The notes under the pieces: model-generated
The model's database searches: none
Seen by the model: only the letters and a program-made list of their open reading frames with translations
Told to the model about the DNA's origin: nothing
From: Phaseolus vulgaris
Lineage: Eukaryota; Streptophyta; Magnoliopsida; Fabales; Fabaceae
Direction of reading: 5' to 3'
NCBI RefSeq assembly: GCF_000499845.2
Contig: NC_023759.2
Coordinates: 51,062,172-51,126,171, forward strand
DNA length: 64,000 nt
Part shown: piece after piece, positions 14,209 through 64,000 of the stretch
Layout of the letters: each line of letters opens with the position of its first letter
Position numbering within the stretch: the stretch's first letter is position 1
Made by a program: the position numbers and the translations under genes

Positions 14209-17200
14209 TTAAAAATCTCGGAAACTCATTTTGGGATCCATCATTTTTCCACCCCCGCGTCCTCTGCCCCTTCCACCTTTTCTACCTCTACCTCTTCCTC
14301 TTGAGCCCATGTGCCTGAAACTTCTACCATGTTTCATTTCCACAAGGGAATGAAGCAACTCGTCGCATAGAATGCAGCCACGGTGCAAGGTTGCTCCGTC
14401 TTCCAGAGGAGTTGTTTTCTTGTTGAAGTCTACTTCTATGATTGAAGAGTCACATTCAGGACACCGCTCTTTAGTTGTGGAGATTCTGTGTGCACCTTGT
14501 GCAAGAAAAACTAAGCAATTACACATGTTACAACAAAGTCGCCATCTGGGAGCACTTATTGGGTCTAAGACAAGTGTTCCACTGCACTCTGGGCAAGCAC
14601 ATACACCCTGGGAAACCAGAGAATTTGGGCAACTGGGATGAGGGCACAGGCTGCAGGGCATGCCAGATCCCTTGCCAATCTTGCCAGCACTACCAGTTTT
14701 AGTGGTATTGATGAGTGCTTCAATGCCTTCGAATGGGGGATTACTGTAGCAGTATGGGCATAGTGGGAATGATTTACCATCTGGGCCAGGCATGGAGCAA
14801 ATTAAAAGCTCAAAATTGTCCAAAGGACAAGACAATTCTTTGTACAGCTGTAGAAAAAATTGAAGCAAATGTGAATGACAGGCATTTGGCAAACCAAACA
14901 ACACAGCAACAACGAAGATTAAATGAAACGGTAAATATCCAATGGTCAGCACATGTGTTAGGAGAATAATAGTTTTTTAAGTATTTAGTTTCTAGAAATG
15001 TATTCTGTTTTGCCTTTATCTTCTCTGATATTGTTTTTCTTTGAGCTTGTATCTTGTATAAGCTGCTGACTCTGTATTTCGAGTACTGTGAAATATATCA
15101 ATCATTCTTGCAAAATATTATTACCATCACTCCTTCTCAACTACTTTTAACTTTCCCAAGTATATTATTCACACTCAATCTGCTGGAGCAGTGTTTGACA
15201 AATATTACCAAAACCCAAGCCCCTTCTTTCTTTTCTTTCTTATCTTTGTTCCGCATCTTGAAGGGAGAGAAGCCAAAATAATAATGTTGATTACAAGTTT
15301 AGACAAGTTAGGAAGGAACTGGATGGTGAAAAGGTACTCTAAAAGTCCTCTTGCTCGTGATCTAATAAACAGTGAAGGGACTGGTGCATGATAGCACACA
15401 TAATGTAGGTCCGTAATAATCTTAAAAGGAATGTTCATATAGTCATCCTCCAATTATAGTGACATGGTAGTTGTTAAACCACTCCAAGTACGAAAACTGT
15501 AACACATTCTGAAAATGAAAAGGAAATCTCTCAATAGTTTGCTGACAGTGAAGACATTTTATACCTGCATATCAGAGGTCTGAAATTCGTTGGATTTTTT
15601 TATATTGTTTTCAAGGAAAAAGGCACAAATGGTTGAAAGGAAGTCAGCCCCAATAACAAATTAGCTTAGGAAAAGAAAGTGGAACGAAGAAGGAAGAGAT
15701 AAATTGTAAACAGGGAAAGATAGGAAGACTTTGCTCTTCAGAATAAGGATGGGGAGAAATGTTAACAATGCTACTTAATACAATCATACAAAATACTTTT
15801 GATAGAAACGAGTTCACAATAATATAAATTTACCAAAATTCAACAGTTTTTCAAGAGTCGATATTATTAGACAGGCTGTATAATACCTTGATAATTCCCT
15901 TCTGAGGAAGATAATAAACCTCCTCACATGTACCACAATACAATCGTGGAGGCTGAGTAGAAATGTACTTCATATATCTCAAGCATTTACCACATTTACT
16001 CAGAATACGCCCTGATTCAGTAAGCGTAGAAAACTGTGCTTCAAATAATGCATCCATATCTTCAATCTAAGCAAGATAGAAAGCAACAGAATTAGTAACA
16101 ATGCAACCTACATCCATGTGCAACTTAGTAGCAAACGTCATGGGGACTTGTGGACAATATTTGAAAAAGAAAGAATAAAGAATACATGGAATCTTTCTAC
16201 TCAAGGATGCATATGGGATAAATCCAGCATACATCAATTCACCGATGCATTAAGAGGAGTGCAAAACCTCATAGCTTTTACAAAAGCATGTGTTATCAAT
16301 AAAAGGTTTGACAGACAACAGTAAGAATAGATTGTAAGACTGAAGCAAAAGATGTAAGCCAGGGAAATACGGGATAAACTGTGACCTGACAAAATTAGAA
16401 AGAAAACAAGAGTATAAATTAATTTTAAATTTTTACCCAACGTAATCTTCAGATTAGGGTTGGAGGAAGGAGAATCAAGAGAAATCGTATTGAAGCACAA
16501 AACTAACTTAAATCAAGAGAAATTATTTAGTATAAATAAATAAAATTCTAATGTGTTGTGAAATTTGAAAAGACAATCATATTGAACCATATTATCACGA
16601 AGAAAACACGAACAAGCACTAAACCAAAGTTAGCCAACCTTTTTGACAAAGTAACTAAACTTCTGTGTGAACTGTTGGATTACATGCTGCACCACATGTC
16701 GATGATCTACCTGACCCTTGGCAATAAGAGTAATCTGTTGCTCAATGAAGCTACGAATATCGGGCAGGCAGAGATCTGGATCTATAGTTTGATAACCTCT
16801 TACTAATGTAATGCCTAATGGGGTCGGGACAAGCTTTCTGCCTGCTTGTACCTGCAATTTGATTAGATGAATATCCAGACAATGATGCATCCATATAGGC
16901 TACAAGTGTATACCCATTACCTGCACATAATTCCGCTCACATATGTTGTTAATATGTACGGGAATTGATGCATCTGTTCCTATTCCATTTTTCTCCATCA
17001 GGGATATCAGCTCACTTTCAGTTAGGTAATCTGGAGGACTGGTAATCCCCTGTAGAACATGCGGTGTTAGCTATCCATAATATATATAGAACTCTAATAC
17101 AAAATATGTTTCAAAAAAATTCTTCTAAAAAATGGTTATATATGAGTCAACCATCCCTGGCCTTTATTATAGTTGAATATAAAACTGAACAGTTCCCTTT

Positions 17201-20200
17201 ATGGTTTACACCACCAAAAAAGACAACAAAAAAGACTAGAAATGGCTAGAAATTAGGATCAAATCTAAAATACTGCATACAGAATCTGAACGAGTCAAGA
17301 GTCACCACAGTTACCTCATAGAGCTCCAACTTTGATACTTCTATCTTCTGCCCTTTTACAAATGATGGAATATTTTTATCATTTAAGGCCAACCAAGGCA
17401 TTATAGCAGTAAATCCTTTGGTAACAACATGCTGCCCTGTACAATGAAAGGACTCTCCGCCAATGGAAAACTCAACCTTCCTCCTGGAAGGATGACAATA
17501 ATGTATGAAAAGCTAGATGTTTATAAAGTTCAATAAAGCGAGGGCATGTGAATATTTGCAATGGTTTAGACAAAGATTAATCTTAGAAGAAATAAGGAGA
17601 AATATTATGCCAATATATTCTGTAAAAACTATATTATTATGATTATGACAACAATATGGGGGAAGCCATATCCTGAATATTCTACCATGTGCACTTAGAT
17701 ACAGTCTGACAAGGAAAAATTGAAAGAGAGAAAATTCCGATAGGTTGCAGAGCCTACATATTTATGAATTTATGACCTTGGCCCCTATTACATTGTTATA
17801 GAATGTTTGACATTTGTACCCGTACTCCAGTATTGCTAACATTATCAAAATGTTTAAATATTTAAATAGATAACAAGGAGAGACCACAACAAACATAAAT
17901 TAACAAGATTGCCTCAGATAAAACAATCCAAACAAAGGCACAGGACATTTGTGGAATCACTTGACTTAAGTCAAAACCATAAGGTGATGATCAAGAAATA
18001 TTGAAACAGTACAATTTTTTACCTTATATACTTGCAGTCCGGAGACACTGTGCCTATGAAGTGTTGACAAATATATTGGTAGAGCTTCCAAGCATCATTG
18101 CCCAGCATATCTTCTGCTGCTGATCTCATTGGAGTAATGGGAGGATGGTCCCCTACATCTGTTCCTAGACGAGGTTTTTGATAACCAGCAGTAAGTAGTC
18201 CTTGTACATAATTACCCCATGTTGGGTTATTTTTTTGTGCAGAGAGTACACCAAGAAAGTCAAATGAAGGAGGGTATGCTGTGCTTTCCGTGCGTGGATA
18301 GCTAGAGAGACATTGTGCAGAAACCAATCAAATGTTAGTACATGCTACAAATTAAGAAAATATAACATTACTAATAAGAAGACTAGGAGATTGTGAGAAA
18401 ACCTGATGAAACCTTGAGTATACAACCGTTCAGCTAGTTGCATAGCCATCTGAGGTCCAAATCCTAGAGCACTTGAAGCAACCTGGAAAGAACATTGTAC
18501 CCAAGTTATTTGACATTAACTCAAGAAATTAACATTGAATCCAGAATAAAATATAGTTGTCTGATTTTTAAAGCAGATTTTTTAGTACAAACATTAACAG
18601 CTCTCCGGAATAAAGCATCATTCCATAATAGTGGAATTTTTCATTTAATAGATATACAGAAAATTCAAACGTAGCCATTATTTATATTATAAAATGTTAT
18701 CATTTCCAAGTGATTCTTAACCTTTAGAAGGTTTACTGTGTTCAGACCAACAGGACGACTTTTGGTTTCCTGTTTTTCTGATATTTCAGTCACTTCCAGA
18801 AGTCCATCTTCGGAAACGAGCTTTTGAAACATCATAGCAACCTGAAATGGCATAAAAGTATCTAAAGGGTGCCCTTCATTTGTTGGTTTGAGACAAAGAA
18901 TGAACACAAATATACAGGAATAGAATTGTTCACATTTATGTCAAACAATTTGCCACGTTGCCATTCTAGCTGAATTTCATAGCCACTTTGAATTATGTAA
19001 GGATGCAAACTCCAAAACTTTTCTGACTTGAAAGTGTTTATTTGTAAATATCGCTGCACGCAAAATCCTAAGGTAGGAGTCTGACACGGTCCATAGCTGA
19101 AATAGGAAGAAATTAGTACAATCAATAACCTCATCAAAGTTTAAACAAAATAAAATTATTGACTCCAGAATGATGATAAATTAGAAATTAGAAAATGTGT
19201 GATATGTAATCTCCTGCTTCTGAATAATGTTGAGATGTGTGTATTGCAGCTTGCATTACCAGGTGGCAATGCATGTCAAACCTAGGAACCTAAGCAATCT
19301 CAGGTCCTGAATGCATAAAAGAACAAGAATAGCATAACAGAACAAAACAAAGCACAGCAAAGACATAATGATAACATAGCCATTAATTTATGACAAAGGG
19401 ATTAATAGCTACTTGAATAAAAAAATTGAAAGAGAATCAAACTAGTATATCATATCACATTACTAATTGTTCCAAAAGCTTCAGCTAAATGGATTTGTGA
19501 TATATACCAAGCTGATCTTGAGATCAGCAGTATCATTGCAAGAAGAATAGGAAGTTGATCAGTCTCTTTTCAGATTTGCAGAAACAGAATGAGGCTTTAA
19601 GCATTGTGAACTTAAGACATTAGCAGCCTTGTGGGGTTTAGTAGTCTCAACTATCTGAGCTTTCTGCGGTCCAATTAATAAGCCTAAAACTAAGTAAACC
19701 CTCACTGCAATCAACATCAACTAGCTAATTTTTAATTTTTGACACAACTCATATGGCAAGGTTAATAGTTGAAGCACTAAAATGCAAATCTCTATTCAGC
19801 TGTTGCTACTCTGGGATATGCAGAAGTTACATATTCTGATTTCAAATAATTCTAAATAATAAGAAATGACAATCATTCTTCTTCATCATCATCATCAACA
19901 ACAAAGTCTTATCTCACTGGGTGAGATTGGCTGCATGTATGGACACACGATATCAATAAACATAGTTAAAAATCAAAGCCTATCTTTCTTCACGAATTAA
20001 AAATAACTAATTAGAAATATGGAATAACAGCAAAAACAATACAAGAAGAACAATAATAAAAATAGAAAATGATATACACAGAGCAGAAAACTAACGAGAT
20101 GACCCTGGAATCTAGGTTGCCATATTTTCCCTGGAAATAACTCGTTTGAAATCGAGTAAAGGCAACTCCAACTTTCAAATCTATCTCTTGCCTAGCATCT

Positions 20201-23200
20201 ACCGCCAATGCCTCATCTTTATTAGGTTTGACAAGGTTGTCTAAAGCCTTCACAACATCTTTCTCAGTAACAGAAGAGAACCGTGCACGGTAAGTATCAT
20301 TTGTTTTGAAACCAGTACACTGTATAACTGCAACAACATTCAATATTTTATATGGTTCAAAATATGATTTGCAATTTTGAAGTTAATTAACTCATTCCAA
20401 AAAATACTGAATGTGAAAGCATGATCTGCACCAAACAAGATACCCCACTATAACACAAGGCAGGATTAAATGTTCACTGCAAATGGCAAAAGGGGATATT
20501 TTGAAATGTAGGGAAGGCCAACCTCCGGCTGTGTAACCAATACACACAAAGCACCAAAAAATAAATAGAAAAAATTAAGTCCTTAACATAAATATTGCAC
20601 AGAAGGCACTCTTAGCTGGCCATTTCTTCATACTACCTAAAGGAGTAAGTAAAACAACGAAAGGATAAAAACTTAGATGCAAATACTAAGGTCCCAGTAC
20701 TAAACAAATCTAGTGACTATTATAGACTAATAGTCTTTCTAAAGGACAGATTGGGCTGAAGAGTTATGTTCATCCTATAACAAGGGTACTGTGGCAGCAT
20801 TTTTTTACATTTCAATTTTCTATTTTCTTTCTGGGCAAGCTACCTTAGACAACTACAAGTCAATTTGTTCAATGGGCTAGGGTTTTTTTTCAATAACCAA
20901 ATCAAAACTCACATCAACTAACTTTGCATTCCAATAACAGAGAAAAGACTGGTTATAATCATCAAAGTATCAAAAAATAAAGAAGACTACCAACGACAGT
21001 GACATATATGTAAAAAAGAAAAATTATACAGTTACCCTCAAAACATATATTTTCTCCTTCACGATCACAATCTAACCATAATACCAAATAACGACATCCA
21101 CGAGCTTCTTGACTTAAATGTCTACAAATATGAGCCTGAATGAAACAAAATGTGTTAGTAACTGCAGCAAATCATCACAAATAAGTCAACTATAGATGAC
21201 AAATTTCCATGTGTTATAACTAATTTGTAAGAAGTTAGCAAGCATCAATGGAATTAACACTCTTCAAAATGTAGAGAGTGGAATGAAGGCCAAAAGATAC
21301 AGCTCAAGTCATTTCAATATAATCAGGCCTTTACAACACCCTGTGAAAAGCATTCAAATCAGTATCAAGTCTAACACCACTGAAACAGAAGATGGTAGAA
21401 TAAATAAACAATAAGATAGCTTAAAATGAAATTATAAAATGAATATTTATCACCCTTGCTAAGAGTCAAGATCAAGTGAAACTTTGAAATGATACCAGAC
21501 CTTCTTTGATAAAGTAATCTACACCCAACAGCTTAGATCTCATTTTCCTCATTGTCACAAGTAAATTTAAATACAAAGTAACAAATCACTATCAACACAA
21601 TTGTGAAAAGTGTGTGCACTGTCCATTTTTTAAGGCCACTATATTCACTTAATATGATATTTTAGAGTTATAGCAACTCTTGGCTTCATTTTTTCCAAAA
21701 CTTCTACAACTTTGCATCTAAAAGCAACGTGTCTACAAAATTTATGAACTGTGTCAACTTTTCTTCAGAAAGCTGAAGCACACAAAATGACCTTCCACGC
21801 CCTTACCTCTATCACTTTCTACTAACTTAAGAAAAATTCTTAATAATACATCTTAAAAATACATAATTATTTGTGATAGAAAGTTATATCTATTTTCCAT
21901 TGGCAAGAAAAAGTTTCCTATTATGCCTGCAGCCTTAAGCCCCTTTGTAGTATTCAAAACTAGAAGAAATCAAAAATACACGAAAACTATAAAAAAAAGT
22001 TCCAGAACATTTTCCCTAAGTGAATTTCTAGGAACCTTCAGAAAACATTAAGAAAACCGTCACCAATCTTTAGGAAATGTATATAGACAGATAGATTACT
22101 AACAAAAATTTAATGTTACTGTCTGGTCTAACTTCATATTAACTGTGAGCATATAAAGCATCATGAAATTGGGTTTCAGTAAGGAAAACAAAGACAAAAG
22201 TAATCTATCTTGCTCCCAATAACTCCAAATAATGTATAAATGATTTTATGAGAAGACACAGAGGAGCCACTGCAACAACTAAGCCTCTTCTATTGTGATT
22301 TGTGAATCATGTCCACCAACAAGCCACAGATCTCACAGAAAAGCAGGAAATATTTGTGGAGTAATACCTTTGGGTTTGACTCATTCTTTAGAACCTGAGA
22401 CTGAAAAAGATCTAACGGATCTGTAGCTGCCCAATCTTGATATTTAGCAGGAAAATCTACACTACATTATCAACAAAAGATAGAAAACCCAGAGTGAATA
22501 CTAAAACCACTCAGGATTTGAGACATGCATAACGTGCAGTGAGACCAAATAGCATGGTTTGCACCATAAACTGATCCAGCCTTCAAAAAGTTAGTATAAA
22601 ACGGGACACTTGCTACACTTTTCAATGACAAAAAGATTAAACCACAAACTAGATAGAGATTCATGTCAAACAACTCCAGTGATTTAATCATCTATGATGC
22701 ACTATCCTTTCCTTCCTTTGATCATATGGAAGTTGTGGAACAGCATCGTAATATAGAATTTCTTGCTTTGCATGCCACTCACTGAATTTCTACAATGTCC
22801 ATTGACATCTAATCTAATACAACTTCCATTCAACGAGAGACATGACAAAAGGAGTGTGCAAATGCCTAATATAATATTTTAAAAGATATAAAAAAAATAA
22901 AAGTAAAAGTTTAATGAAAATCTTATTAAGTGATCTCCTCGAAAAAAAGATAAGAAAAAAACCTGAATACGTGCCCAATAACGGATGTTACTTTAAAATA
23001 TGCAGGCGACCCAAGAAACTTCCCGTCAAATTCATGAACTTCCGTACTTCCCCTTCTCGTAAACGCCTGCTTACATAATGTGCTTCAAGAAGTTTAGTTT
23101 AATTTTTACTTAAAGCTAATATAACATTTTTACACTGAGTGTAAAAAATTTATACTGAAAAATTAATCACATATCATCTCAAGTATGTGTAATAATTATA

Positions 23201-23744
23201 AAAGTTAACAAAATTATCATACATGACAATAAGTGATTAAATCAGAGCAAAAACTGTCAGTGTGTTCTAATTAAATTACAAAAGTGAAAAAACTTATCAT
23301 ACATGGCAATATGTGATTGAATAACAGTGCAAAAAACTGCAGTGCATTCTAATCAGACAATAATAGTAGAACTCAATTGCGTATTTTAGTAACTGTTTTG
23401 TTTTCATTTTTCATTTTAGGCGGAAATCAAACAAAGCTATAAACAGCACGACCACTAGGTTTTGAACGGAGGAAACATGTGTGTAGGTTTTGAATGGAAG
23501 AAACATTTATATAGGTTTTGAAGTAAGAGGATGTGTATGCGAAATGCGAAAAAGAGTACCTGATTTCGAGAGAGAACAGAAGCAATAGAGAGAGCGATGC
23601 TAGGCTTCTCTGCGACCTGAAAGGAAAACCACACAACAAAAGGTCACAACAACAACAACAACTGCAATAACACAAATGGAACCAATATCCTTGAGAGAAC
23701 TGAATTTCTCTTACCATCAGAACTTTGGGAATGGGTGGCGCCAT
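14209..23744 (-). CDS. TOP3B: DNA topoisomerase 3-beta (type IA)
   Basis: Fifteen exons, complement(14209..14847, 15887..16066, 16639..16851, 16921..17049, 17315..17483, 18023..18301, 18403..18482, 18722..18841, 18934..19096, 20096..20327, 21036..21135, 22368..22461, 22963..23066, 23560..23616, 23715..23744). The total is 2589 nt, 862 aa. Exon 1 is only 30 nt ([10 protein letters not shown]). Visible parts: the Toprim start V-A-E-K-P-S-I-A in exon 2; the metal-binding D-x-D-x-E at about 117-121 (W-L-D-C-D-R-E-G-E); the catalytic tyrosine, about Tyr328, in S-Y-P-R-T-E-S; four-Cys zinc modules in the last two exons; and an Arg/Gly-rich tail, typical of the RNA-linked beta form. Type IA enzymes pass single strands through a transient break; animal TOP3B also acts on RNA. 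The gene looks intact. Its first exons have a rearranged inverted copy at 38071-39500. Confidence 0.96.
23200..23365. repeat. Two-unit tandem repeat in TOP3B intron 2
   Basis: Units at about 23200-23279 and 23281-23365 share the order TTATCATACATG, GCAATA or ACAATA, TGTGATT, then AAAAACTG and TTCTAAT. Both units are also present in the inverted copy near 38440-38620, so the tandem duplication came before that copy. Confidence 0.6.
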
Positions 23745-36000: not shown

Positions 36001-36591
36001 GCTCTCAAGCCATCAAGAAATTGAGAAAATGATAGTCATAACTTTTGACGTTGAACTCAATTTAATTTATTTGCCGCAGTTGATGATGAATATTTTCTCT
36101 AGTAGTAGTGACATTTTTAAACAGCTCAGTCAGTTTTTCAACATGAAATTTGCAGAAACTGGCTCCTACGATTAACTTTTGAAATTTGAAGTCTTTATTT
36201 GCTGCAGTTGATGATGAATATTTTCTCTAGTAGTGGTGAAATTTTTAAACAGCTGGGTCAGTTGGGTTGACTAACATGTAATTTGCAGAAACGGGCTATG
36301 GATGCAGAACAGGAAGCTGCCAAGGCCTACAAACAAATTGACAAGTTGAAGAAGAAGCACGAGAAGGAGATTATCACACTCAATGAGCTCCTTGCAGAAG
36401 CACGTTTGCCGAAGGAATCAGTACGGCCAACTTATGATGACGATGTCGTCATGCCCAGTTATGACGACTCAAAGGAGCAAAACAGTTTTAATGATCAGTT
36501 TGAGCCATTTCACAATAATGCAGAGTATGGCGAGCTTGCAAAACTAGCAGAACCATCATGGTTCTCTGGTTATGATAGATGTAACATATAA
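30055..36591 (+). CDS. PAKRP1: Phragmoplast-associated kinesin KIN-12 (PAKRP1 type)
   Basis: Sixteen exons, 30055..30348, 30437..30574, 30750..30833, 30944..31060, 31151..31210, 31300..31353, 31438..31530, 31928..32023, 32293..32438, 32820..32969, 33056..33185, 33280..34305, 34391..34489, 34575..34727, 34812..35729, 36289..36591. The total is 3861 nt, 1286 aa, close to Arabidopsis PAKRP1. The start is the first ATG of a frame open for about 98 codons upstream with no earlier ATG. A Ser/Pro-rich head of about 98 residues precedes the motor. Motor motifs: G-Q-T-G-S-G-K-T at 171-178, N-x-x-S-S-R-S-H ending at 300, and D-L-A-G-S-E at 330-335. Long coiled coils follow. The protein sits at phragmoplast microtubule plus ends and organises the cell-plate midline. 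The intron after exon 2 must use a GC donor. A three-unit repeat sits near residues 978-1017. Confidence 0.95.
36071..36297 (+). repeat. Direct repeat duplicating the 3' splice region of the last kinesin intron
   Basis: Units at 36071-36163 and 36199-36297 each carry GCAGTTGATGATGAATATTT, then TTTTTAAACAGCT, and end in TTTGCAGAAAC. The second unit supplies the acceptor that restores the family reading frame (AG ends at 36288). The first has an equally good-looking acceptor (AG ends at 36155), but its use would hit a stop after eight codons. Confidence 0.75.
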
Positions 36592-38070
36592 ATATATCAT
36601 CACATTACAATGTGTCATTTGTATTAATTTGTTCATATATGATTTGAAAAAATTATTGTATTCTTTGGTTCTTACTTTTTGTGAGCATAAACGAGTTTGT
36701 CTCCGTTCATCCCTCACTCTAAAAACTATTTTGAGTAGGCACAACATTTACCTGATAGAGATTGTCGGTTGCAAAGTCTCTTCATTCTTTGTATTCTTAA
36801 TTCCAATTTATGAAATTATTATCATTAATACATTTCCATTTTTTTCCCAATAGCTGAAATTTAGGTTGGAAAGGGTAAATAATTGAATTAAATAAACTTA
36901 ATATCTTTTTTTTTTTTACTTTTTTATTATGTATGTGCTTTGGTTGCTTTCATTAATCTTTTTTAATCATGATTTCACCTATATATACATAGATACATAA
37001 TTTTGGTTGCGATTTTGGTGTTTAAATATAACTAATATGTTCAAAATATTTATTATAAATTATATATTTTCAAATGATCTACCAAATGAAATAAAATGTG
37101 TTTTTGATTTGCACCGTTTACTAATGTCTGTTGTTTGTTTTATTCTTAATGATTTAAAAGATTTTGTCTTCTAATTATTCATATTTATAAATTAAATTAT
37201 AAAGTTTTGGATATTCAAGTTCGAAAATAATGTTACTTCTGTACTATCCATAAGCTTATTTGGACAACATAAATGACATTTCAAATCCCAACATAAATGA
37301 GTTCTGGATATTGAATCCTCAATACCATTCTAGACATAAAAATCTGGAATCAATAACTCACTTCTGATATGATCATCCAAAAATTTAAATAAAACACGAA
37401 AATGACCTTCTAAATATCTAAATCCAAAATATATAACAATCATTCTGAATTTTTACATCCATAAATAAACAAAGAAAACAAGAACAATATTAGATTTTAA
37501 ATTTTATGTTGAGTGCATATCTTAAATAATATAGTGGAATGAGAAAGAATCTATTATTTATAAGTAAATAATTTTTCTGAAAAAATTTCACTAGAATATT
37601 ATGTATTTCGTTGAAATTATTTTGAGTTAGCTTTATTAATATTTTATTATTTAAAAAATATTTTATAGCCGACGAAGCGCACACTATTAATCCCCTATTT
37701 GAAATGGATACTGGTTTGGCAAATGCTTCCTCCATCCAACACTTTTAACTTGCACTCAACATAATTTCAAAAATTTCGAAAATACCTTTTATTCCAAAAA
37801 TAAAAATTCAGAATTGAAAATAATGCATTCTGGAAAAATAAATCTGGAAGAGATTTTTATGTTTCGGATATAAAAATCTGGAAAAAGAAAATCAAAATTC
37901 CATTCCAGATAAAAAATCCAGAACTGAAAATTTCTAGAAAAAATTATCCGAAAAAATTATTGTGTTTCCGAAAAAGAAGGTTCCGAATGTAATTTTATAT
38001 ATACCCCACATTTTAAGGGTATTTTTGGATTTTCTCATGTGATTGGTTGCATTTATATGGTGCACGAAAC
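36592..38070. other. Kinesin 3' UTR and AT-rich intergenic region
   Basis: No gene is seen. Segments at 37250-37480 and 37790-37990 carry repeated short phrases such as CTGGAA and AAAATCTGGAA, resembling degenerate dispersed repeats. A short non-AT-rich piece near 37670-37740 is not recognised. Confidence 0.5.
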
Positions 38071-39500
38071 ATGGCGCCTCCCATTCCCAAAGTTCTGATG
38101 GTAAAATAAATTCAGTTCTCTCATGGAAATTGGTTAGAAGTGGTGTTATTGCTGTTGTTAGCTTTTTTGTTGTGTGACTTTCCTTTCAGGTCGCAGAGAA
38201 GAAGCATAGCATCGCTCTCTCTATTGCTTCTGTTCTCTCTCGCTTTCAGGTACTCCTTTCGCATTTCGCATACACACCGTTTTACTTCAAAACCTACATT
38301 CATATTTCCTCCATTCAAAACCTATATACATGATTCCTCCGTTCAAAACCTAGTGCTAGTGCCATTTATAGCTTCGTTTGATTTCCGCCTAAAATGAAAA
38401 ATGAAAACAAAGTTACTCAGACACGCAATTGAGTTCACGTATTACTATTATTGTTTAATTAGAATGTACTTGCAGTTTTTTGCACTGTTATTCAATCACA
38501 TGTTGCTATGTATGATAAGTTTTTTTACTTTGTAATTTAATTAGAACGCACTGTTAGTCCTTACTCTGATCTAATCACATATTGTCATGTATGATAAGTT
38601 TGTTAACTTTTATAATTATTACACATACTTGAGATGATATGTGATTAATTTTGAGTATCATTTTTTTACACTCAGTATAAAAATCTTTATATTATATTAG
38701 GCATTTGCACTCCTTTTCGTAAGATGTATTATTGAGAAATTTTCGTAAGTTAGTGGAAAGTGATAGAAGAAAGTGAGGGCTTGGAAGGCCATTTTGTGTG
38801 CTTCAGCTTGCTGAAGAAAAGTTGACACAGTTCATAAACTTTGTAGACACATTTCTTTTAGATACAAAGTTGTAGAAGTTTTGAAAAAAGTGAAGCTAAG
38901 AGTTGCTATAACTCTAAAATATCATATTAAGTGAATATAGTGGCCTTCAAAAATGGACAGTGCACACACTTTTCACAATTGTGTTGATAGTGATTTGTTT
39001 CTTTGTATTTAAATTAACTCGTAACAATGAGGAAAATGAGAACTAAGCTGTTGGGTGTAGATTCTTTGATCAAAGAAGGTCTGGTGTCATTTCAAAGTTT
39101 CACTTGATCTTGACTCTTAGCAAGGGTGATGAATGTTCATTTTATAATTTCGTTTAAGCTATCTTATTGTTTATTTATTCTAGCAGCTTCTGCTTCAGTG
39201 GTGCGAGACTTGATACTGTTTTAAATGCTTTTCACAGGGTGTTGTAAAGGCCTGATTATATTGAAATGACTTGAGCTGTATTTTTTGGCCTTCATTCCAC
39301 TCTCTACATTTTGAAGAGTGTTAATTCCATTGATCTTTGCAAACTTCTTACAAATTGAGTTATAACACATGGAAATTTGTCATCTATAGTTGACTTATTT
39401 GTGATGATTTGCTGCAGTTACTAACACATTTTGTTTCATTCAGGCGCAAATTTTTAGACATTTAAGTCAAGAAGCTCGTGGATGTCGTTATTTGGTCTCC
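38071..39500 (+). pseudogene. Rearranged inverted copy of the TOP3B 5' end (exons 1, 2 and part of 5), joined to the next gene
   Basis: 38071-38100 copies TOP3B exon 1, from its ATG exactly. 38190-38249 copies exon 2 (20 codons instead of 19, P-S changed to K-H-S). 39444-39490 copies the start of exon 5. The connecting sequence matches TOP3B intron 2 and the intron before exon 5, in inverted orientation. Exons 3 and 4 are gone: one deletion removes roughly 22870-23130, another roughly 21855-22850 of the parent. Splice signals remain: GTAAAA donor and TTTCAG acceptor around intron 1, CAG/GTACTC donor after exon 2, TTCATTCAG acceptor before exon 5. All three pieces are phase 0 and run without a stop into the following gene. 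As a topoisomerase it is dead; as a 5' end for a chimera it looks usable. Confidence 0.85.
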
Positions 39501-40667
39501 ATGGTTACTTTTAAAAGCTATTTAAGTTATAGAAGAACAGAGATCCCTTTCAGAATCTTCAGATTTCGTAGCACTTTCTTTTTATCACTGGAAGCTACAT
39601 GCTGGCATATATATGGTGACTTGAGATATTATCATTCTGGGTCAGAATGGGGTAAAAATCAGAAATTGAATCCAAACGAGAAGCCAAACAGGGTGGGACT
39701 TTTCTGGGACTTGGACAATAGACCACCCAATGCAATCCCACCTTATGAAGTTGCCAATAAGCTGAGAATAGCTGCATCTTCCTTTGGGATTGTTCGGTAC
39801 ATGGTGGCTTATGCAAATAGCCACACCTTTAGTCATGTTCCTCAATCTGTACGGGAGAAAAGGGAAGAGAGGGAAAAGTTGCATCGTTTAGAGAACAAGG
39901 GTGTCATCAAGCGAAATGAACCTTATCGTTGTCGGGTTTGTGGGAGAAAGTTTCATACTAATGACAAGCTTGTCAACCATTTCAAGCAACTGCATGAGCG
40001 CGAGCACAGGAAAAGGATGAGCCAGATTGAGTCTGCTAGAGGGAGCAGGAGGGTGAAGTTGGTGGCTAAGTATTCTATGAAAATGGAAAAGTACAAGAAG
40101 GCTGCAAGTGCTATTCTCACACCCAAAGTGGGATATGGTTTGGCAGATGAGCTCACACGGGCTGGGTTTTGGGTTCAAACTGTGTCTGATAAGCTACAAG
40201 CTGCAGATCGAGCATTGCAAAGCCACATTGTGGATGTCATGGATCATAGGCAGGTTGAGTGTGTGGTTCTTGTGTCTGATGATTCTGATTTTGTCGATGT
40301 GATAAAGGAAGCAAGGCAGCGATGTCTCAAGACGGTTGTCATTGGGGATATTGATGATGGTGTCTTGAAGAGGACTGCTGATACTGCCTTTTCTTGGGTG
40401 GAAATTCTGATGGGAAAGGCTAAGAAACAGGCTGTTTCAGTTGTAAAAAAATGGAAGGATCGTGATATTTTAAAGAGGATAGACTGGACATGTAACCCAG
40501 ATGCGGATGAAAAGAAATATAATGTGGATGATACCATTGCTGAAACATCAGAAGATGATAATTTTGAAGATACCTGTGATGAAGTTGATGATGTCTATAA
40601 GGATGACAGAGGTTCTTGGTGGGAATTAGATTCTGACAATGATGTCACAAAGAGACAGTCAGGCTAA
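39501..40667 (+). CDS. NYN-domain putative nuclease with C2H2 zinc finger (possibly expressed as a TOP3B-headed chimera)
   Basis: 388 aa from the ATG at 39501, in one exon. The first ~50 residues are rich in Arg, Phe, Ser and Tyr with few acids, as in a mitochondrial presequence. A split NYN (PIN-like) fold follows: F-W-D-L-D-N near 67-72 and V-L-V-S-D-D-S-D-F near 256-264, with the conserved Asp residues that bind metal in this RNase superfamily. Between them is a C2H2 finger (C-R-V-C-G-R-K-F then H-F-K-Q-L-H, near 144-165) with basic flanks. The C-terminus is acidic. Similar Arabidopsis proteins are annotated as putative endonucleases with a C2H2 finger; the substrate is unknown. The frame stays open upstream into the TOP3B fragment. 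Joining 38071..38100, 38190..38249 and 39444..40667 gives 437 aa. Which start is used cannot be told from sequence. Confidence 0.88.
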   Translation: MVTFKSYLSYRRTEIPFRIFRFRSTFFLSLEATCWHIYGDLRYYHSGSEWGKNQKLNPNEKPNRVGLFWDLDNRPPNAIPPYEVANKLRIAASSFGIVRYMVAYANSHTFSHVPQSVREKREEREKLHRLENKGVIKRNEPYRCRVCGRKFHTNDKLVNHFKQLHEREHRKRMSQIESARGSRRVKLVAKYSMKMEKYKKAASAILTPKVGYGLADELTRAGFWVQTVSDKLQAADRALQSHIVDVMDHRQVECVVLVSDDSDFVDVIKEARQRCLKTVVIGDIDDGVLKRTADTAFSWVEILMGKAKKQAVSVVKKWKDRDILKRIDWTCNPDADEKKYNVDDTIAETSEDDNFEDTCDEVDDVYKDDRGSWWELDSDNDVTKRQSG

Positions 40668-42338: not shown

Positions 42339-47758
<5,420 letters not shown>

Positions 47759-48889: not shown

Positions 48890-51060
48890 ATAATAAAAAA
48901 TTATTAGTGAAATCCAATTTTTGTAAGGATTTGGATTTTTTTTATTGATTTTTTTTTACTGTTACGTCTATTCTATTCTTATTTTTTTATGGGCGTCATT
49001 TTGACTAAAACATTTATTATCTTGATTTTGGTTAAGAATTGTTTTAACTTTTTTGTGTGATAATTTTGGTTATTGGTAAGGTTACTTTCCCTTTTCACTA
49101 TAATTGGTAGTTAAATTTTCTTTAACACTATGTTTTCTCAGCACCTTAAATTGAATACTCACGTCACAAACAAGATATTCTCATTTTAATAATAAAAATA
49201 AACAAAAATATGAATCTAGTCAAATATTCAATAAATTTTTTAAAAAATAAGATCCTAATAAAATATTTTGTAGATTTTATTTGAATTTAAAATATCAATT
49301 AAATGGAAAGAAGAAAAAAAAAACAAGCATTATTTTTTATCATAACAATACTACTTTTTGGTAAAAAGAAATTATAATAATAAAGTAGGATAAAAAAACA
49401 TAAAAGAGTTACATTTATTTCTTCTCTAAATCAAACATTTATAAGAATCCTAACATGATAAAGATGTAGTCCAGGTCCACATGGACGAAGAGTATCCATG
49501 TATGAAGTAAGAGAAACATAGTATTTATATTTGTTTTCACATATTTCTTCAATCTTCATGTAGTTTTCACCAGTCAAACCACAACTGTAGATATATTTTT
49601 CAGTAGCAAAAATAAGAAGTTCACCATTCATAACCGTGAACCCTGTGATTATAGGATATTTTTCCTTCAAACCTATTTCTTGTGTTTTTATCTTCACAAT
49701 TATCCTCCACATACTTGTTTTATAATCTTCCAAAATCTCCACTTTGAAAGTAGATATTTTAAGTCTTACCAAGCAAATGGAGGAACTTGCCATTGACACC
49801 TTGCCCCAGTTGAAAATGCTCATGTCACACTTCTTATCCGTTGAGCTCTTTCTAGCAGGTTCGGACAACTTGAGCATTGTGGAGGTGCCATTCTTGAGAT
49901 TGTAGGACATTATATAGGGTTCAAAATAAGGGCTCCCTTCAGTGATGTAAGAGCCACAATCTAAAATGAAGTGGATGACTCCATTGTCATGCACAGGCAT
50001 GTTAAACTTCATGTTTCTACCACCAGCACAAAAACTCTTTTCCATTGTTTTCCATAATCCTTCCCGAGGCTTCAAAATTTTGCATGCATAATTTGAAGAC
50101 CAATCAGTTGGGGTTTCAAAATGAACCACCATGTAATCATCAAACTCATCATAACACTCCAACAACATGATCATAACATGTGCACGTGCATTCAAATTTT
50201 CTTCACCATCGGTGGATAAAGAAATTGGTAACTGAGAATTTGTCGCTGGGTTGCAAATGTAAAACTCAGAAGGTGTCTTATCTGTTGCACGACAAAGTAT
50301 CAATCCCTTGATTGAAGCTAAGATTTGACTGGATTTTGACAGGAACTGGAGAACTTCGCCAGACACACCTAATCCTTGCTGATGCGAAGGTAATGAGTGC
50401 AACCTTACCTCTTCGTTACATGGCCTCTCTAGTTGTATGAAGAAACATGTATCATCTCTTTTCAATGAGTTATGAACATGATTCATTAGGAAAAAACCTT
50501 CTTCTAGAAGATTGTAAAACCCCTTGTTCACAGCTTTAAATCTGTAAAGAGACTTTGCTGGCAAATAAGAACAAATAGGGAATATCTCGCTTGAAATCAT
50601 AGCCATGACTGGGTGAGGTTAGTGTGAGAAAAAAAAAAGTGAGAAGTAGAGAAAAGTGTGTAGGCAAATTCAAAAAAGAGATGATATGATATCTGTAAAA
50701 CTCAATTTTATAGTTGGATGAATATATATAGATATAGATAAAAAAATATATTAACCAAGATAAGATAAGAAAATTTTATCTATATACATACAATTAAAAA
50801 AATATTAATAGAAAATCTTGATTTCTTTTTTAATTTATAAGTTCTTTTATTTGCACATTTTAAAACAGGAAAAAGTTATAAATCAAAATTTCATCATTAA
50901 CAAAATCTCTAAGAAAATATTATATAATACATTCTGAAAATATTTCAAATTTTAGTCAAATAAAACCCTCTATATTTTAGTTTCGATAGCAAATGATAAT
51001 CAACTTTTATTCTTAACTAATATTTTGTGTTCAGTTTAAAATTATTTATAGTTTAATGAT
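48890..51060. repeat. Left arm of a large inverted repeat carrying the F-box gene
   Basis: This segment is matched in reverse complement by about 53640-55810. Matching stretches cover the downstream flank (for example GGGCGTCATTTTGACTA near 48990 against its complement near 55700), the whole coding region and several hundred bases of promoter. Arms are about 2.2 kb each with small indels. Ends are estimated by eye, within about 50 bases. Confidence 0.8.
49431..50606 (-). CDS. F-box protein with associated interaction domain, intact copy
   Basis: Single exon, 391 aa, starting at the ATG at 50606 (M-A-M-I-S-S-E-I-F). The N-terminus carries a short, somewhat worn F-box: E-I-F-P-I-C-S-Y-L-P-A-K-S-L-Y-R-F-K-A-V-N-K, near residues 7-28. 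This segment normally binds SKP1 in SCF ubiquitin ligases. The motif I-C-N-P-A-T-N-S-Q near 120 and the later repeats resemble the F-box-associated region of the large plant FBA families. The target is unknown. A frameshifted inverted copy lies at 54085-55238. Such genes duplicate rapidly in plants, and expression is not assured. Confidence 0.85.
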   Translation of the reverse strand: MAMISSEIFPICSYLPAKSLYRFKAVNKGFYNLLEEGFFLMNHVHNSLKRDDTCFFIQLERPCNEEVRLHSLPSHQQGLGVSGEVLQFLSKSSQILASIKGLILCRATDKTPSEFYICNPATNSQLPISLSTDGEENLNARAHVMIMLLECYDEFDDYMVVHFETPTDWSSNYACKILKPREGLWKTMEKSFCAGGRNMKFNMPVHDNGVIHFILDCGSYITEGSPYFEPYIMSYNLKNGTSTMLKLSEPARKSSTDKKCDMSIFNWGKVSMASSSICLVRLKISTFKVEILEDYKTSMWRIIVKIKTQEIGLKEKYPIITGFTVMNGELLIFATEKYIYSCGLTGENYMKIEEICENKYKYYVSLTSYMDTLRPCGPGLHLYHVRILINV

Positions 51061-53639
51061 CATGAATATATAAAAATAGGATAAAAAAATAGAAATAGAT
51101 ATAGAAATAGATAAAAAATACTTGTTAATCAAGATAAGATAAGATAAAATAAGAAAATTTTATCTATATGCATACAATTAAAAAAAATATTAACAAAAAA
51201 TCTTAATTTTTTTAATTAATACGTTCTTTTATTTGCACATTTTAAAACATAAAAAAAAAATATCAAAATTTCATCATTAACAAAATCTCTTCCAAGAAAA
51301 TATTATATAATACATCCTAAAAAGATTTCAATTTTTAGTAAAATAAAGTTATTTTATATTCTAGTATTGATACAATGATAATCAACTTTTTATCTTTAAC
51401 TAATATTTTGTATATTTTAAGATTATTTTATATTTGATTGAGGATATTTTAAGAAATTAACAGTACAAAAAATTATTAAATAAAAATTAATTTTAAAGAT
51501 TAAAATAATTTGTTAATAGAAACTATTTTATAAATTAATTTTTATTATTAATAAAAAATTATAAAGTAATTTATAAATTGGTATTTAACTATTAACTATC
51601 AAATTTTTAAATACTAATTATTTTATATTTTAAATTAGTCAATATTACTCTTTTCAATATAAAATATGAGTAGCTAAAATCTTAATAACTAATTTAAATA
51701 TCAATTTAGAAACTATTTTATAAATCTTTATTAATAAAAGAAACACATTATATACCAATAATTTTTAAGTTTCTAAAATAATATTTAATTTAATCATGAC
51801 TAATTATTTTTTATCTTTATATTTAATAATTTTATTTAGTGTAAGCAACCTATCAATCTAAAACAGTAAATATATACAAAGTATTTAGTTATTAATAATT
51901 TGTATTTATTCATAACTTTTTTATTCTATGAATATTATCAATATAATTTAATATCCATTACAATATATAGAGAGAGATATAGATAGATTCATCCTTTTTT
52001 CCATTTTTTTTATTTCTTTCTGTCCTTCAAATATATTCCAAATTTATCTGATGTGAAATTTTAGAAAGAAAAGAAAAATTTATCTGCATATACAATTAAA
52101 AAATGTTAACACAATTTTTTTTTTTTAATTAACATGTTTTTGTTTTTATTTGCACGGTTAAAAGAATAGAAAAAACGTATAACCTCACAATCTCATCATT
52201 AAGAAATAAAAAAAACTCAAATTCTAGTCAACGCCCTTTTATATTTTAGTTTTAAATCGTGCAAATTCAGTAACCACATATTTTAATTAAAATGTGTAGT
52301 TGATTACAATCTCATAAATTATTTTAGTTTCAACTTTTTATTCTTACGTAATATATTGTTTATTTTAAGATTATTTTATATTTGATTGAAGATATTTTAA
52401 AGAATTAATATATGGCGCAAGTAATTATCTATTAATTTAAAAATAATAAATATATCAAAAATATTTAGTTAGTATTTTATAAGATAATATTTTTTAATAA
52501 ATTATTTCATAGAATTCATAGCCATAACAAAATATATATTTTATTTTTTTTATTGGTTTCGGTCCTTGAAATATATTCCAACGTCTCTCTAAAACTATTT
52601 TTATTAATGGAAAAAATAAAAAATCTCAATAAAATATAAAAAATTCTTATTTGAATTTTAGTCAAATTAACAATAATCATATAATTAAAAGTGTTACATC
52701 ACACGTATCATCAAATATTAAACTAAAAAATAATATATTTTTAAGGATTAAAATAAACAAAATTATTGGACATTAAAAAGATTATAATATTTTATTTTTA
52801 AAATTATATATTTTTACTTGTTTTACGTAAGTAGATTTTAATTTAAAATATCCATGGTTACTAGTTAACTTTTTTTTATATGACACAACTATTTATTTAT
52901 TTTTTATTAAGTCATATTGAAAAGTAATAAATTTTTTTATATAAAACTTTCAGATAATAATTTATCATCATATAAAAAAATAATATTAAAAATAAAAAAT
53001 AAAAAATAATATTAAAAAATAAAAAATAAAAAAATATGAAGAAATTATATCAAAATTGATAGATAACTATATTATATTTATTCAATAGTGAAAGAAGTTT
53101 CAAATTTTAATAGTGAACAAAGTTCATATTTTAGACCTTCTATATTTTTATAAAGAAAAATTTCTCCTATCTTTTAAGATTTTTTAATTTTTACACAAAA
53201 AAATACATAATTTAATTTAGGTTGTAAATTTTTTTTCTATCTTAACTTATTTCACGAGATTTTTTCAGTGAGTCCATAAGAGATATGTTTTTATAATTCT
53301 ATACATCTAACAACTATACATTAACATTTTTTAAAATAAAAACTACATTTACTTGACTATTATATTTTTTATAAATATAAATATTATTGGAGTTCATAGT
53401 TAATTTTAAAATTGATTAATTTAGTAATTTTTTTAAACAATTTATCGAAACACAACCAAAAATAATTAGATGCTATAGTGACTAAATTAGATATCATTTT
53501 AGAGACTAACAAAAATTTTGGTTTCTAAATTAGTTTTTATTATTGTTAAATAGTTTCTAAATTGATATCTAATTAGCTATCAATATTTTAATTACAAATG
53601 TTTTTATTATAGTCAATAGAAAAAGACTTTTTTTTAAAT
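51061..53639. repeat. Spacer of the inverted repeat, containing further degraded copies of the F-box upstream region
   Basis: 51130-51450 and, more weakly, 52070-52400 repeat the phrase order of the F-box promoter at 50760-51060: TTTATCTATAT, CATACAATTAAAAAA, TTTTATTTGCAC, TTTCATCATTAACAAAATCTC. The remainder is extremely AT-rich, including a run of AAAAATAA-like units near 52980-53035. No gene is seen. Confidence 0.65.
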
Positions 53640-55810
53640 ATAATCTTAAAATATACAAAATATTAGTTAAGAATAAAAAGTTGATTATCAAAACTAGAAT
53701 ATAAAATATCTTTATTTGACTAAAATTTGAAATATTTTTTGGATGTATTATATAATATTTTATTGGAAGAGATTTTGTTAATCGTGAAATTTTGATATTG
53801 TCGCTTTTTATTCCTGTTTTAAAATATACAAATACAAGAACGTATTAATTAAAAAAATCAAGATTTTCTGTTAATATTTTTTTAATTGTATGCATAGATA
53901 ATTTTTTTTATTTTATCTTATCTTATATTGGTTAACAAGTTTTTTTTATCTATTTCTATATATTCATCAAACTATAAAATTGAGTTTTACAAACATCATA
54001 TCATCTCTTTTTTGAATTTGTCTACACACTTTTCTCTACTTCTCACTTTTTTTTTTTTGCTTCTCACACTAACCTCATCTAGTCATGGCTATGATTTCAA
54101 GCGAGATATTTCCTATTTGTTCTTATTTGCCAGCAAAGTCTCTTTACAGATTTAAAGCTGTGAACAAGGGGTTCTACAATCTTCTAGGAGAAGGTTTTTT
54201 CCTAGTGAATCATGTTCACAACTCGTTGAAAAGAGATGATACATGTTTCTTCGTACAACTAGAGAGGCCATGCAACGAAGAAGTTAGGTTGCACCTATTA
54301 CCTTCGCAACAACAAGGATCAGGTGTGTCTAGCGAGGTTCTCCAGTCCTTGTCAAAATCCAGTCAAATCTTAGCTTCAATCAAGGGATTGATACTTTGTC
54401 GTTCAATAGATAAGACACCTTCTGAGTTTTACATTTGCAACCCAGCTACAAAGTCTCAGTTACCAATTTCTTTACCCACGCATGATGAAGAAAATTTGAA
54501 TGCACGTGCACATGTTATGATCATGTTGTTGGAGTGTTATGATGAGTTTGATGATTATATGGTGGTTCATTTTGAAACCCCAACCGATTGGTCTTCAGAT
54601 TATGCATGCAAAATTTTGAAGCCTCAGGAAGGATTGTGGAAAACAATGGAAAAGGGTTTTTGTGCAGGTGGTAGAAACATTAAGTTTAACATGCCTGTGC
54701 ATGACAATGGAGTCATCCACTTTATTTCAGATTGTGGCTCTTACATCACTAAAGGGAGCCCTTATTTTGAACCATATATAATGTCTTACAATCTCAAGAA
54801 TGGCACCTCCACAATGCTCAAGTTGTCCAAAACTGCTAGAAAGAGCTCAACGGATAAGAAGTGTGACATGAGCATTTTCAACTGGGGCAAGGTGTCAATG
54901 ACAAGTTCCTCCATTTGCTTGGTAAGACTTAAAAGATCTACTTTCAAAGTTTGGATTTTGAAAGATTATAAAACAAGTAGGTGGAAGAGAATTATGAAAA
55001 TAAAGACAAAAGAAATGTGTTTGAAGGAAAAATACCCTACAATCACATCACGGTTATGAATGGTGAACTTCTCATTTTTGCTACTGAAAAATATATCTAC
55101 AATTGTGGCTTGACTGGTGAAAACTACATGAAGATTGAGGAAATATGTGAAAACAAATGTAAATACTATGTTTCTCTTATTTCATACATGGATACTCTTC
55201 GTCCATGTGGACCTGGAGCTACACCTTTGTCATGTTAGGATTCTTATAAATGTTTGATTTGTATAAAAAATAAACTCTTTTATGTTTTTTTTATCATACT
55301 TTGTTATTATAATTTCTTTTTATCAAATAGTAATATTGTTATGATAAATTTCATACTAATTGTTTCTACAAAATAGTGCTTATTTTTTCTTCTTCTTTCC
55401 ATTTAATCGATATTTTAAATTTAAATAAAATTTACATAATATTTTATTAGGATCTTAATTTTTTTTAAATCTATTGAATATTTGACTAGATTCATATTTT
55501 TGTTTATTTTTATTATTAAAATGAGAATATATTGTATGTGGCGTGAGTATTAAACTTAAGGTATAGAGAAATCATAGTGTTAAAAGAAAATTTAACTACC
55601 AATTACAGTGAAAAAAGAAAGTTACCAATAACCAAAATTATCACACAAAAAAGTTAGTAATTATTAACCAAAATCAAGGTAATAAATATTCTAGTCAAAA
55701 CGACGCCCATAAAAAATAAAAATAAAATAGACGTAACAGTAGAAAAGAAAAATCAATAAAAAAAAAATCCAAATATTTACATAAATTTTGGAATTCATTA
55801 ATTTACTTTA
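53640..55810. repeat. Right arm of the F-box inverted repeat
   Basis: Reverse-complement match to 48890-51060. It carries a short insertion with TTTCATACTAATTGTTTCTA near 55350 that the left arm lacks but the third copy at 63690-64000 has, so this arm and the third copy are closer to each other than to the left arm. Confidence 0.8.
54085..55238 (+). pseudogene. F-box gene, second copy, with two frameshifts
   Basis: The ATG and about 320 residues match the copy at 49431-50606 closely. After K-E-K-Y-P near 55045 a 4-base deletion relative to the intact copy shifts the frame, giving a stop at 55057-55059 after 324 residues. The lost C-terminal part continues in another frame to 55238. A one-base insertion near 55216 then changes the very end (C-G-P-G-A instead of C-G-P-G-L). 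A truncated protein with F-box and most of the associated domain could still be made, so this may be a shortened gene rather than fully dead. Confidence 0.85.
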
Positions 55811-62670: not shown

Positions 62671-63345
62671 TCACAGCTTTTAAGACCAGTTTGAGTGTTA
62701 TTTGTCTTCATTAACTGTTACAGTTACTTTTCCTCCCCTTCCATTAATATGATGATATCTATCCAAATCTATTTTCATTTATGGGTGTTCATTGTCTATA
62801 TTTATGTAATAAACTGCATTGAATTAGTTTAGTTCCTACATATGCATTATTTTCCGTGTATGATAATTATTTATTGACAACGAAATTGATAAATACAGTT
62901 TTAAATTACTTATATCATTTTTCTCTTCAGGAATTGGTTCAGTTCAAGGATTTGACAAGAAACCGCAGCAGTTGTAATGGCTATATTTGCTTCTCTAAAA
63001 ATGGAGAGTGAGGTATGTCACAAGTTGTGTACGTGTATAAATGTTTGGTTCACAACTAGATGTAAATAACCAGTTTATCAAATATATTAAAATGAGGATT
63101 TTATGTTTAACTTAATCTTATAAAAGTTTATAAGATGATGTTTACATCTATTTGAAATATCCTAATTTTTAGTTGATGTGAAATCTTGAACACATTCTTA
63201 CGTATAAATTGTTGGTAGTCTTGAGTGTGAGGGGTGTAAGATAGACAATTCGAATGATTCTGAATCGATATAAGATCTCTAACAAAATCCTTAAATCTTT
63301 AATTGTTCGGCATGGACTGTGATGAGAATAAGAACCAAGTGGGTT
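62671..63345 (+). pseudogene. Scrambled SEC23 fragment (introns 11, 7, 8 and exon 8)
   Basis: 62671-62745 matches SEC23 intron 11 (about 47446-47512). 62746-63077 matches intron 7, exon 8 and the start of intron 8 (about 45690-46180 with gaps). 63301-63345 matches a later part of intron 8 (about 46186-46240). The exon 8 copy, at about 62932-63013, has a duplicated TTCAG-like insert and a lost base that break the frame. The order of pieces differs from the parent gene. It sits just after the PRD1 stop. Confidence 0.8.
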
Positions 63346-63689
63346 TATTTTTTTATTTTCAAAATTATAAAGTTGTATTCCTTAACTTTAAAAATTGTTA
63401 CATTGAATTTTAATTTTTATTATAATTATATTTCGCATAGTATCATATAATAAAACATTTGTTACTTTAATTTGTAATATTAATTTTTTAATTAAATTAA
63501 ATAAAAATTGAAAATATTAGTAAAGTAAAATAATAATAAATAAAACGAAAATACATGCTAGAAATTATGTGAAGGAACTTATGACTAATTTTATAAACTA
63601 TATCCTTCTACAAATTAAATTCTGCTTATTAAATACTTATGAAAGTATAAGGGATACTCTATTATGTATTAACTTATTCTCATTAATAT

Positions 63690-64000
63690 GTAGCTTTCTT
63701 TTTTTTATATTGGTAGTTAAAACTTTTTCTACAATATGTTTTCTTAGTACCCTAGATTGAATACTCATGCCATAGACAAGCTCTGCTCATTTTAATAATA
63801 AAAATAAACAAAAATATGAATCTAGTCAAATATTTAATAGATTTTTAAAAAATTAAGATCCTAATAAAATATTATGTAGATTTTATTTAAATTTAAAATA
63901 TCGATTAAATGGAAAAAAGAAAAAAAAATAAGCACTATTTTGTAGAAACAATTAGTATGAAATTTATCATAACAATATTACTATTTTGTGAAAAGAAATT
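63690..64000. repeat. Downstream flank of a third F-box copy, running off the right edge
   Basis: Matches 49110-49380 (same orientation) and the complement of 55310-55570, including TTAATAATAAAAATAAACAA and ATATGAATCTAGTCAAATAT. By position, a minus-strand F-box copy would be expected to start its 3' end a few dozen bases beyond the window. Confidence 0.75.

Follow-up and report, generated by a model that had tools for sequence, protein, structure and literature searches.

Organization of the Chimeric Locus

The window analyzed, a 64,000-nucleotide stretch of Phaseolus vulgaris chromosome 1, harbors an intact TOP3B gene and a partial copy of it joined in frame to the gene of a putative C2H2/NYN nuclease. 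The parent TOP3B (PHAVU_001G264300) is located on the minus strand at 14209..23744, with its stop codon ending at 14209, and the product spliced from the window agreed with P0124 across all 862 aa. The joined frame of the chimera (38071-38100, 38190-38249, and 39444-40667, plus strand) encodes 437 aa with GT-AG at the intron borders, and the coordinates, frame, length, and borders proposed for it in an earlier note were all recovered from the window sequence. The chimera is already known as the NCBI gene model PHAVU_001G264600 (P0001), showing 100% identity over 437 aa.

Within-window comparison revealed the copied TOP3B pieces in the order 37615-37709, 38071-38694, 38689-38717, and 38720-39507, inverted with respect to the parent (23899-21073), the longest of them matching with an E of 0.0. 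The upstream piece (37615..37709, parent 23899-23805) was identical at 83/95 positions. It is followed by an unrelated 361-bp stretch (37710..38070, plus strand), which replaces the last 60 bp 5' of the TOP3B ATG and contains TATATATA at 37996, a sequence counted 16 times in the 64 kb. Nothing else in the window matched this stretch at E<1e-3, and a search for terminal repeats, judged by eye, showed no convincing transposon ends. Short AATCTGGAA-type repeats were observed in it and are present near 37327 too.

The copy of exon 1 (38071..38100, 10 residues) is identical to the parent at 29/30 positions, and its donor reads GTAAAA, the parental one being GTAAGA. The copy of exon 2 (38190..38249) is identical at 53/57 positions, carries a 3-bp gain, and ends in the acceptor-like CTTTCAG. 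Exons 3 and 4 are deleted, and the fused intron (38250..39443) is composed of a TOP3B intron 2 piece, a 29-bp intron 3 piece, and an intron 4 piece. The copied start of exon 5 (39444..39507, 58/63 ungapped positions identical) continues without a stop into the nuclease ORF, the homology extending to 39507. The loss of two exons, the gain of one codon, the open passage from exon 5 into the nuclease, and the phase 0 of all retained junctions are thus as the note had described them. Over ungapped sites, 552/612 were identical to the parent in piece 38071-38694 and 737/782 in piece 38720-39507.

Other rearrangements were also observed in the window. A tandem duplication of ∼100 bp lies at 36066-36297, near the end of the gene 5' of the TOP3B copy. 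A large inverted repeat at 48903-55802, with arms of ∼2.1 kb each (48903-51045 and 53640-55802) sharing 89% identity, may be a transposon of the kind bounded by long terminal inverted repeats. Exon-sized pieces of the gene beginning near 42339, presumably SEC23-like, recur out of order at 62682-63349 and 63690-64000. They derive from 47445-47506, 45683-45964, and 46124-46239 and adjoin sequence matching the outer parts of the inverted-repeat element, an arrangement that looks like transposon capture of gene fragments.

Conservation of the Recipient Nuclease

The native nuclease ORF (39501..40667, plus strand) encodes 388 aa. The TOP3B head covers, as had been claimed, the putative native presequence beginning at Met 39501. 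The same Met is the start in 10 of 16 aligned head-less homologues, including those of Vigna, Glycine, Cajanus, Spatholobus, and Sphenostylis; the other six begin further in. The alignments comprised 19 rows for the comparison of starts and 65 rows for conservation, hand-picked from 120 listed proteins.

The Pfam NYN domain (PF01936) was matched with 43.4 bits against a curated cut-off of 24.2 (E 6.3e-11), and the scores of the nuclease for the Pfam zinc fingers were below their cut-offs. The residues C193, C196, H209, H214, D119, D121, D309, and D310 were invariant in the 65 rows, and D312 was nearly so. With the domain, the zinc ligands, and the catalytic-type Asp residues kept, the protein is a predicted member of the C2H2/NYN family (AT4G12240-like). 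The Toprim and topoisomerase domains, both present in the parent P0124, gave no Pfam match in P0001, and a viral contig scan returned no matches. In a PDB sequence search, the best 60 of 105 matches fell in the zinc-finger part. The predicted structure of the chimera had a mean confidence of 69.8, with residues 39-105 at low confidence, and its best fold match was the NYN domain of human MARF1 (6fdl), with a probability of 1.00, a Foldseek E of 1e-3, 11% identity, and a TM-score of 0.71 by target and 0.26 by query.

The bean ORF ends nine residues short of the cowpea protein, its stop codon being followed by LSDLSVNK. Relative-rate tests of bean against cowpea with five outgroups gave P values from 0.32 to 0.87, i.e., no significant difference in rate, and a decaying nuclease was rejected on this ground. 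Against Sphenostylis, bean was faster with two of the five outgroups (P below 0.05). Of 126 conserved columns, bean deviated at 5, which placed it 14th among the 65 rows; the 13 other printed rows had 0-4. Judged by these comparisons, the nuclease body is very probably alive, and a mild acceleration of it in bean is conceivable.

Distribution and Age of the TOP3B Copy

Sequence words of the TOP3B head were found in P0001-P0003 only, among 123 listed homologues, the remaining 120 being without them. This set consisted of 120 listed of 420 matches, one of the listed being Phaseolus-named, and three proteins retrieved by a short query for head fragments, none with head words. The head was likewise absent from the Vigna protein models.

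P0002 and P0003 represent a bean-like second allele or species, in which the exon-5 piece is also open into the nuclease ORF. Apart from the start residue they agree with each other, and residues 31, 34, 219, and 389 set them off from the reference. Both begin at residue 31, one with V and the other with M, and therefore look like genomic ORFs called by rule and not like transcripts.

The intron distance between copy and parent was 0.081, and the two long pieces as wholes gave 0.060 and 0.105. The legume substitution rate is ∼8.5e-9 per site per year, and with this rate the intron distance yields an estimated age of ∼3.5 to 6 million years for the copy; the split of bean and Vigna is dated at 8 to 10 million years. 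The description of the locus as a candidate young chimeric gene holds: it is chimeric, derives from the parents proposed, is likely young, and is joined in frame.

Nearby locus tags for TOP3B and the NYN gene were found in Canavalia (VNO77_44346/VNO77_44320) and Crotalaria (RIF29_08385/RIF29_08375), these being locus tags and not gene maps, and in Lathyrus sativus the TOP3B and nuclease entries are on contigs of equal size. A retroposed origin of the nuclease gene was rejected on the basis of the Canavalia and Crotalaria tags, although the listed TOP3B and NYN entries of Glycine, Lotus, and Lupinus luteus are on different contigs. The P0121-P0123 set includes two fragmentary nuclease-like proteins of Vigna angularis, and P0123, from a JGI contig, is a relative that looks frameshifted. 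Given these proteins, breakage or duplication of the nuclease gene may occur in other members of the group.

Proposed Origin of the Fusion

The copy carries two deletions, both running from intron to intron, the first of which removed exon 3 and the second exon 4. In the former, TTATATTAG is common to both ends, and in the latter, a run of T is found at the ends. The border of exons 3 and 4 in the parent is phase 2, and the loss of one exon alone would therefore break the frame; only the double loss keeps it. The last match between TOP3B and the nuclease gene is ATGGTTA at 39501-39507, which is common to both and contains the native start codon. The ATG of this heptamer does not lie in the TOP3B frame of the parent. 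In the copy, an extra base immediately 5' of the ATG brings the TOP3B and nuclease frames together; this base may come from the nuclease leader or be a later gain.

It is proposed that in the Phaseolus lineage an inverted copy of ∼2.8 kb of TOP3B, beginning in the upstream region and ending early in exon 5, was placed ∼14 kb from the parent and became joined, at the short shared ATGGTTA, to the start codon of the nuclease. The structure, including the removal of exons 3 and 4 by the intron deletions, is read directly from the sequence, and the order of events would be a matter of reconstruction. The nuclease's own leader would have been displaced or lost in the process, and transcription would have to cross the captured TOP3B leader and introns, since the nuclease ORF is intact and evolves at about the cowpea rate.

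Preservation of the Frame and Tests for Selection on the Head

The earlier note had argued that an inactive copy would not keep both frame and splice sites. To this argument, a neutral simulation gave little support. In 20000 trials for each distance, with the indel spectrum taken from the aligned copy, a copy was counted as kept if its start codon and both GT-AG pairs survived, its total length was a multiple of three, and no stop had arisen in it; the frame was judged on total length and not exon by exon, which makes the test slightly generous. At copy-branch distances of 0.03, 0.04, 0.05, 0.07, and 0.08, the simulated copies kept amounted to 40, 29, 22, 12, and 10%, respectively. About half of the intron distance of 0.081 thus corresponds to ∼29% kept, or ∼10% after a 1-in-3 chance of the junction frame. 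The preserved frame is a weak argument for function because deletions from intron to intron spare the splice sites and neutral copies often stay open.

Copy and parent differed at 10/150 exon and 95/1244 intron sites (P=0.87). By hand count, five of nine head substitutions replace residues, as would changes at 107 of 141 sites (P=0.23), a share that fits neutrality and also mild constraint. Between the two bean-like alleles, 2/19 head residues and 2/388 body residues differ (P=0.012); without residue 31, the start codon of the second ORF call, the contrast gave P=0.13. Variation between alleles is possibly faster in the head than in the body. With regard to the residues replaced in the head, the parental P is present in 101/101 and H in 113/118 of the TOP3B rows having a residue there, and C in only 58/120 rows. 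Part of the exon change may lie on the parent side and not in the copy, since at the position of the N-to-F replacement the N of the bean parent is itself unusual, G being found in 92 of 120 TOP3B rows. TOP3B being constrained, the exon changes had been expected mostly on the copy, and the rows agree with this in part only. The 5' half of the copy is more divergent than the 3' half (60/612 vs. 45/782, P=0.006), and gene conversion or different constraint could account for the gap. Altogether, these comparisons give no clear sign of selection on the head, and no constraint is visible in it, with slight constraint still compatible with the counts.

Predicted Expression Routes and Targeting

Transcripts starting 5' of 38071 would, once spliced, yield the 437-aa pre-protein, whose 49-residue head stems mostly from TOP3B, and those starting within the copied intron 4 would yield the native 388-aa form. 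The ATG at 38071 lies in the context AACATGG and the native one at 39501 in TCCATGG. Two further ATGs, at 38037 and 38057, are found shortly 5' of 38071. These ATGs, if transcription starts near TATATATA at 37996, argue against easy use of 38071, and so do the donor, which lost the G at position +5, and the acceptor-like end of exon 2. With the exon-5 piece as a leader only, an ATG at 39482 opens a different frame that overlaps the native start.

The head has a net charge of +5 and is modeled as one helix (residues 8-41, pLDDT 54-77 by blocks). Its maximal hydrophobic moment was 0.624, a value attained in 39 of 2000 head shuffles and, among 102 native N-termini, in one. The undiverged TOP3B pieces already had a moment of 0.554 (49 of 2000 shuffles), and most of the head's amphipathy is, by this measure, inherited from them.

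Upstream of the nuclease domain, an R-x(1-3)-H motif was found in 90/106 homologues (strict R-x-x-H in 88) vs. 647/2120 shuffled N-termini. The conserved R-x-x-H, which may be a mitochondrial processing site, is located downstream of both starts (38071 and 39501), and this suggests that both pre-proteins could give the same mature protein. A mitochondrial location of the nuclease is probable. It had been suggested that alternative starts could send the nuclease to different compartments; the placement of the motif makes such a difference possible and not to be expected. If R-x-x-H is indeed the processing site, the identity of the mature enzyme would explain why the fusion is tolerated.

Interpretation of the Chimeric N-Terminus

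The TOP3B copy may be a plain pseudogene fragment, inert in itself, with transcription starting from the copied intron 4/exon 5 piece, the 388-aa protein as the sole product, and the 437-aa model arising in annotation from TOP3B similarity. The divergence of the head exons at the intron rate points in this direction, as do the share of neutral copies that stay open (∼29%, ∼10% with the junction frame), the disappearance of the 60 bp 5' of the TOP3B ATG, and the donor change, the acceptor-like end of exon 2, and the upstream ATGs. However, the copy has lost neither its start nor any of the four splice dinucleotides, its frame is uninterrupted, the exon-5 frame is open in the second allele too, and an exon-5 piece serving as a mere leader would put the out-of-frame ATG 39482 over the native start. 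We consider this explanation rather unlikely. It is improbable that the head is a functional new presequence, i.e., an added targeting signal under present or past positive selection, with alternative starts changing the destination or the import efficiency. The net charge of +5, the rise of the hydrophobic moment from 0.554 in the parent pieces to 0.624, the Lys encoded by the gained codon, the two positions changed to Phe, and the AACATGG context are consistent with such a role, but no constraint is visible in the head, the second allele differs in it, and the parent pieces are amphipathic already. That TOP3B and the nuclease gene were brought together by misassembly found no positive support and was rejected as exceedingly improbable, because the identical junction is present on two further contigs, of 82 kb (P0002) and 4.9 kb (P0003), which differ from the reference at four residues; copy and parent are, moreover, 6-10% apart in two long pieces.

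Capture of a promoter and leader by the nuclease gene is the reading we favor, with somewhat better than even confidence; a chimeric N-terminus, expressed and selected, would be possible in addition. The head would at present be tolerated and close to neutral, and both forms would most likely yield the same mature mitochondrial enzyme. It is improbable that shuffling of TOP3B exons equipped the mitochondrial-type nuclease of Phaseolus, in the course of a few million years, with an additional leader of higher amphipathy, promoter choice now setting the import route or dual targeting of the enzyme.

Comparison With Known Systems

The locus id was found in the literature in a single report, a field GWAS that places Phvul.001G264600 near ss715645301, a marker for pods per plant, and names it a C2H2 zinc finger protein (PMC11435040). 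No paper describing the fusion was found among the listed literature on the locus id, bean fusion genes, NYN genes, and presequence shuffling, and mentions of AT4G12240, in the parts of the sources seen, were table rows only. The chimera is an ordinary kind of new gene, and the possible gain of a presequence is its testable part. It is a clean, apparently young chimera in a crop, with the donor 14 kb away, the recipient intact, and a very short junction sequence, and it allows one to ask directly whether 5' ends, once captured, spread as neutral leaders or turn into new targeting signals.

Similar to the C2H2/NYN plant proteins called like AT4G12240, the bean protein has the whole nuclease body, the native start, the zinc ligands, and the Asp residues; it differs in its 49-residue head and in lacking the nine C-terminal residues of the cowpea protein. 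The NYN domain of human MARF1 best matches the predicted fold of the bean nuclease, and the C2H2 finger inside the plant protein sets the two apart. MNU1 and MNU2 are described as mitochondrial NYN proteins carrying LOTUS domains (PMC9181182). The NYN domain is common to them and the bean protein, for which LOTUS domains gave no Pfam match and a mitochondrial place is predicted.

The APOK3/KPOK3 pollen-killer system of Arabidopsis consists of young genes, in which the antidote is described as chimeric and mitochondrial, and predicted NYN domains are present in both killers (PMC11761171). Youth, chimerism, and NYN are shared with the bean gene as a likeness of description. To our knowledge, no segregation distortion is known for the bean locus.

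In four Oryza species, 310 fusion genes have been reported; in those of Type II, one gene is duplicated and its duplicate comes to lie next to a gene that is not (Zhou et al., 2022, PMC9199173). Unlike these, the bean copy is inverted and local, with its expression putative, as is the single-copy status of its partner; as in Type II, the parent TOP3B is kept and partly copied beside its partner, and the copy gives the 5' end.
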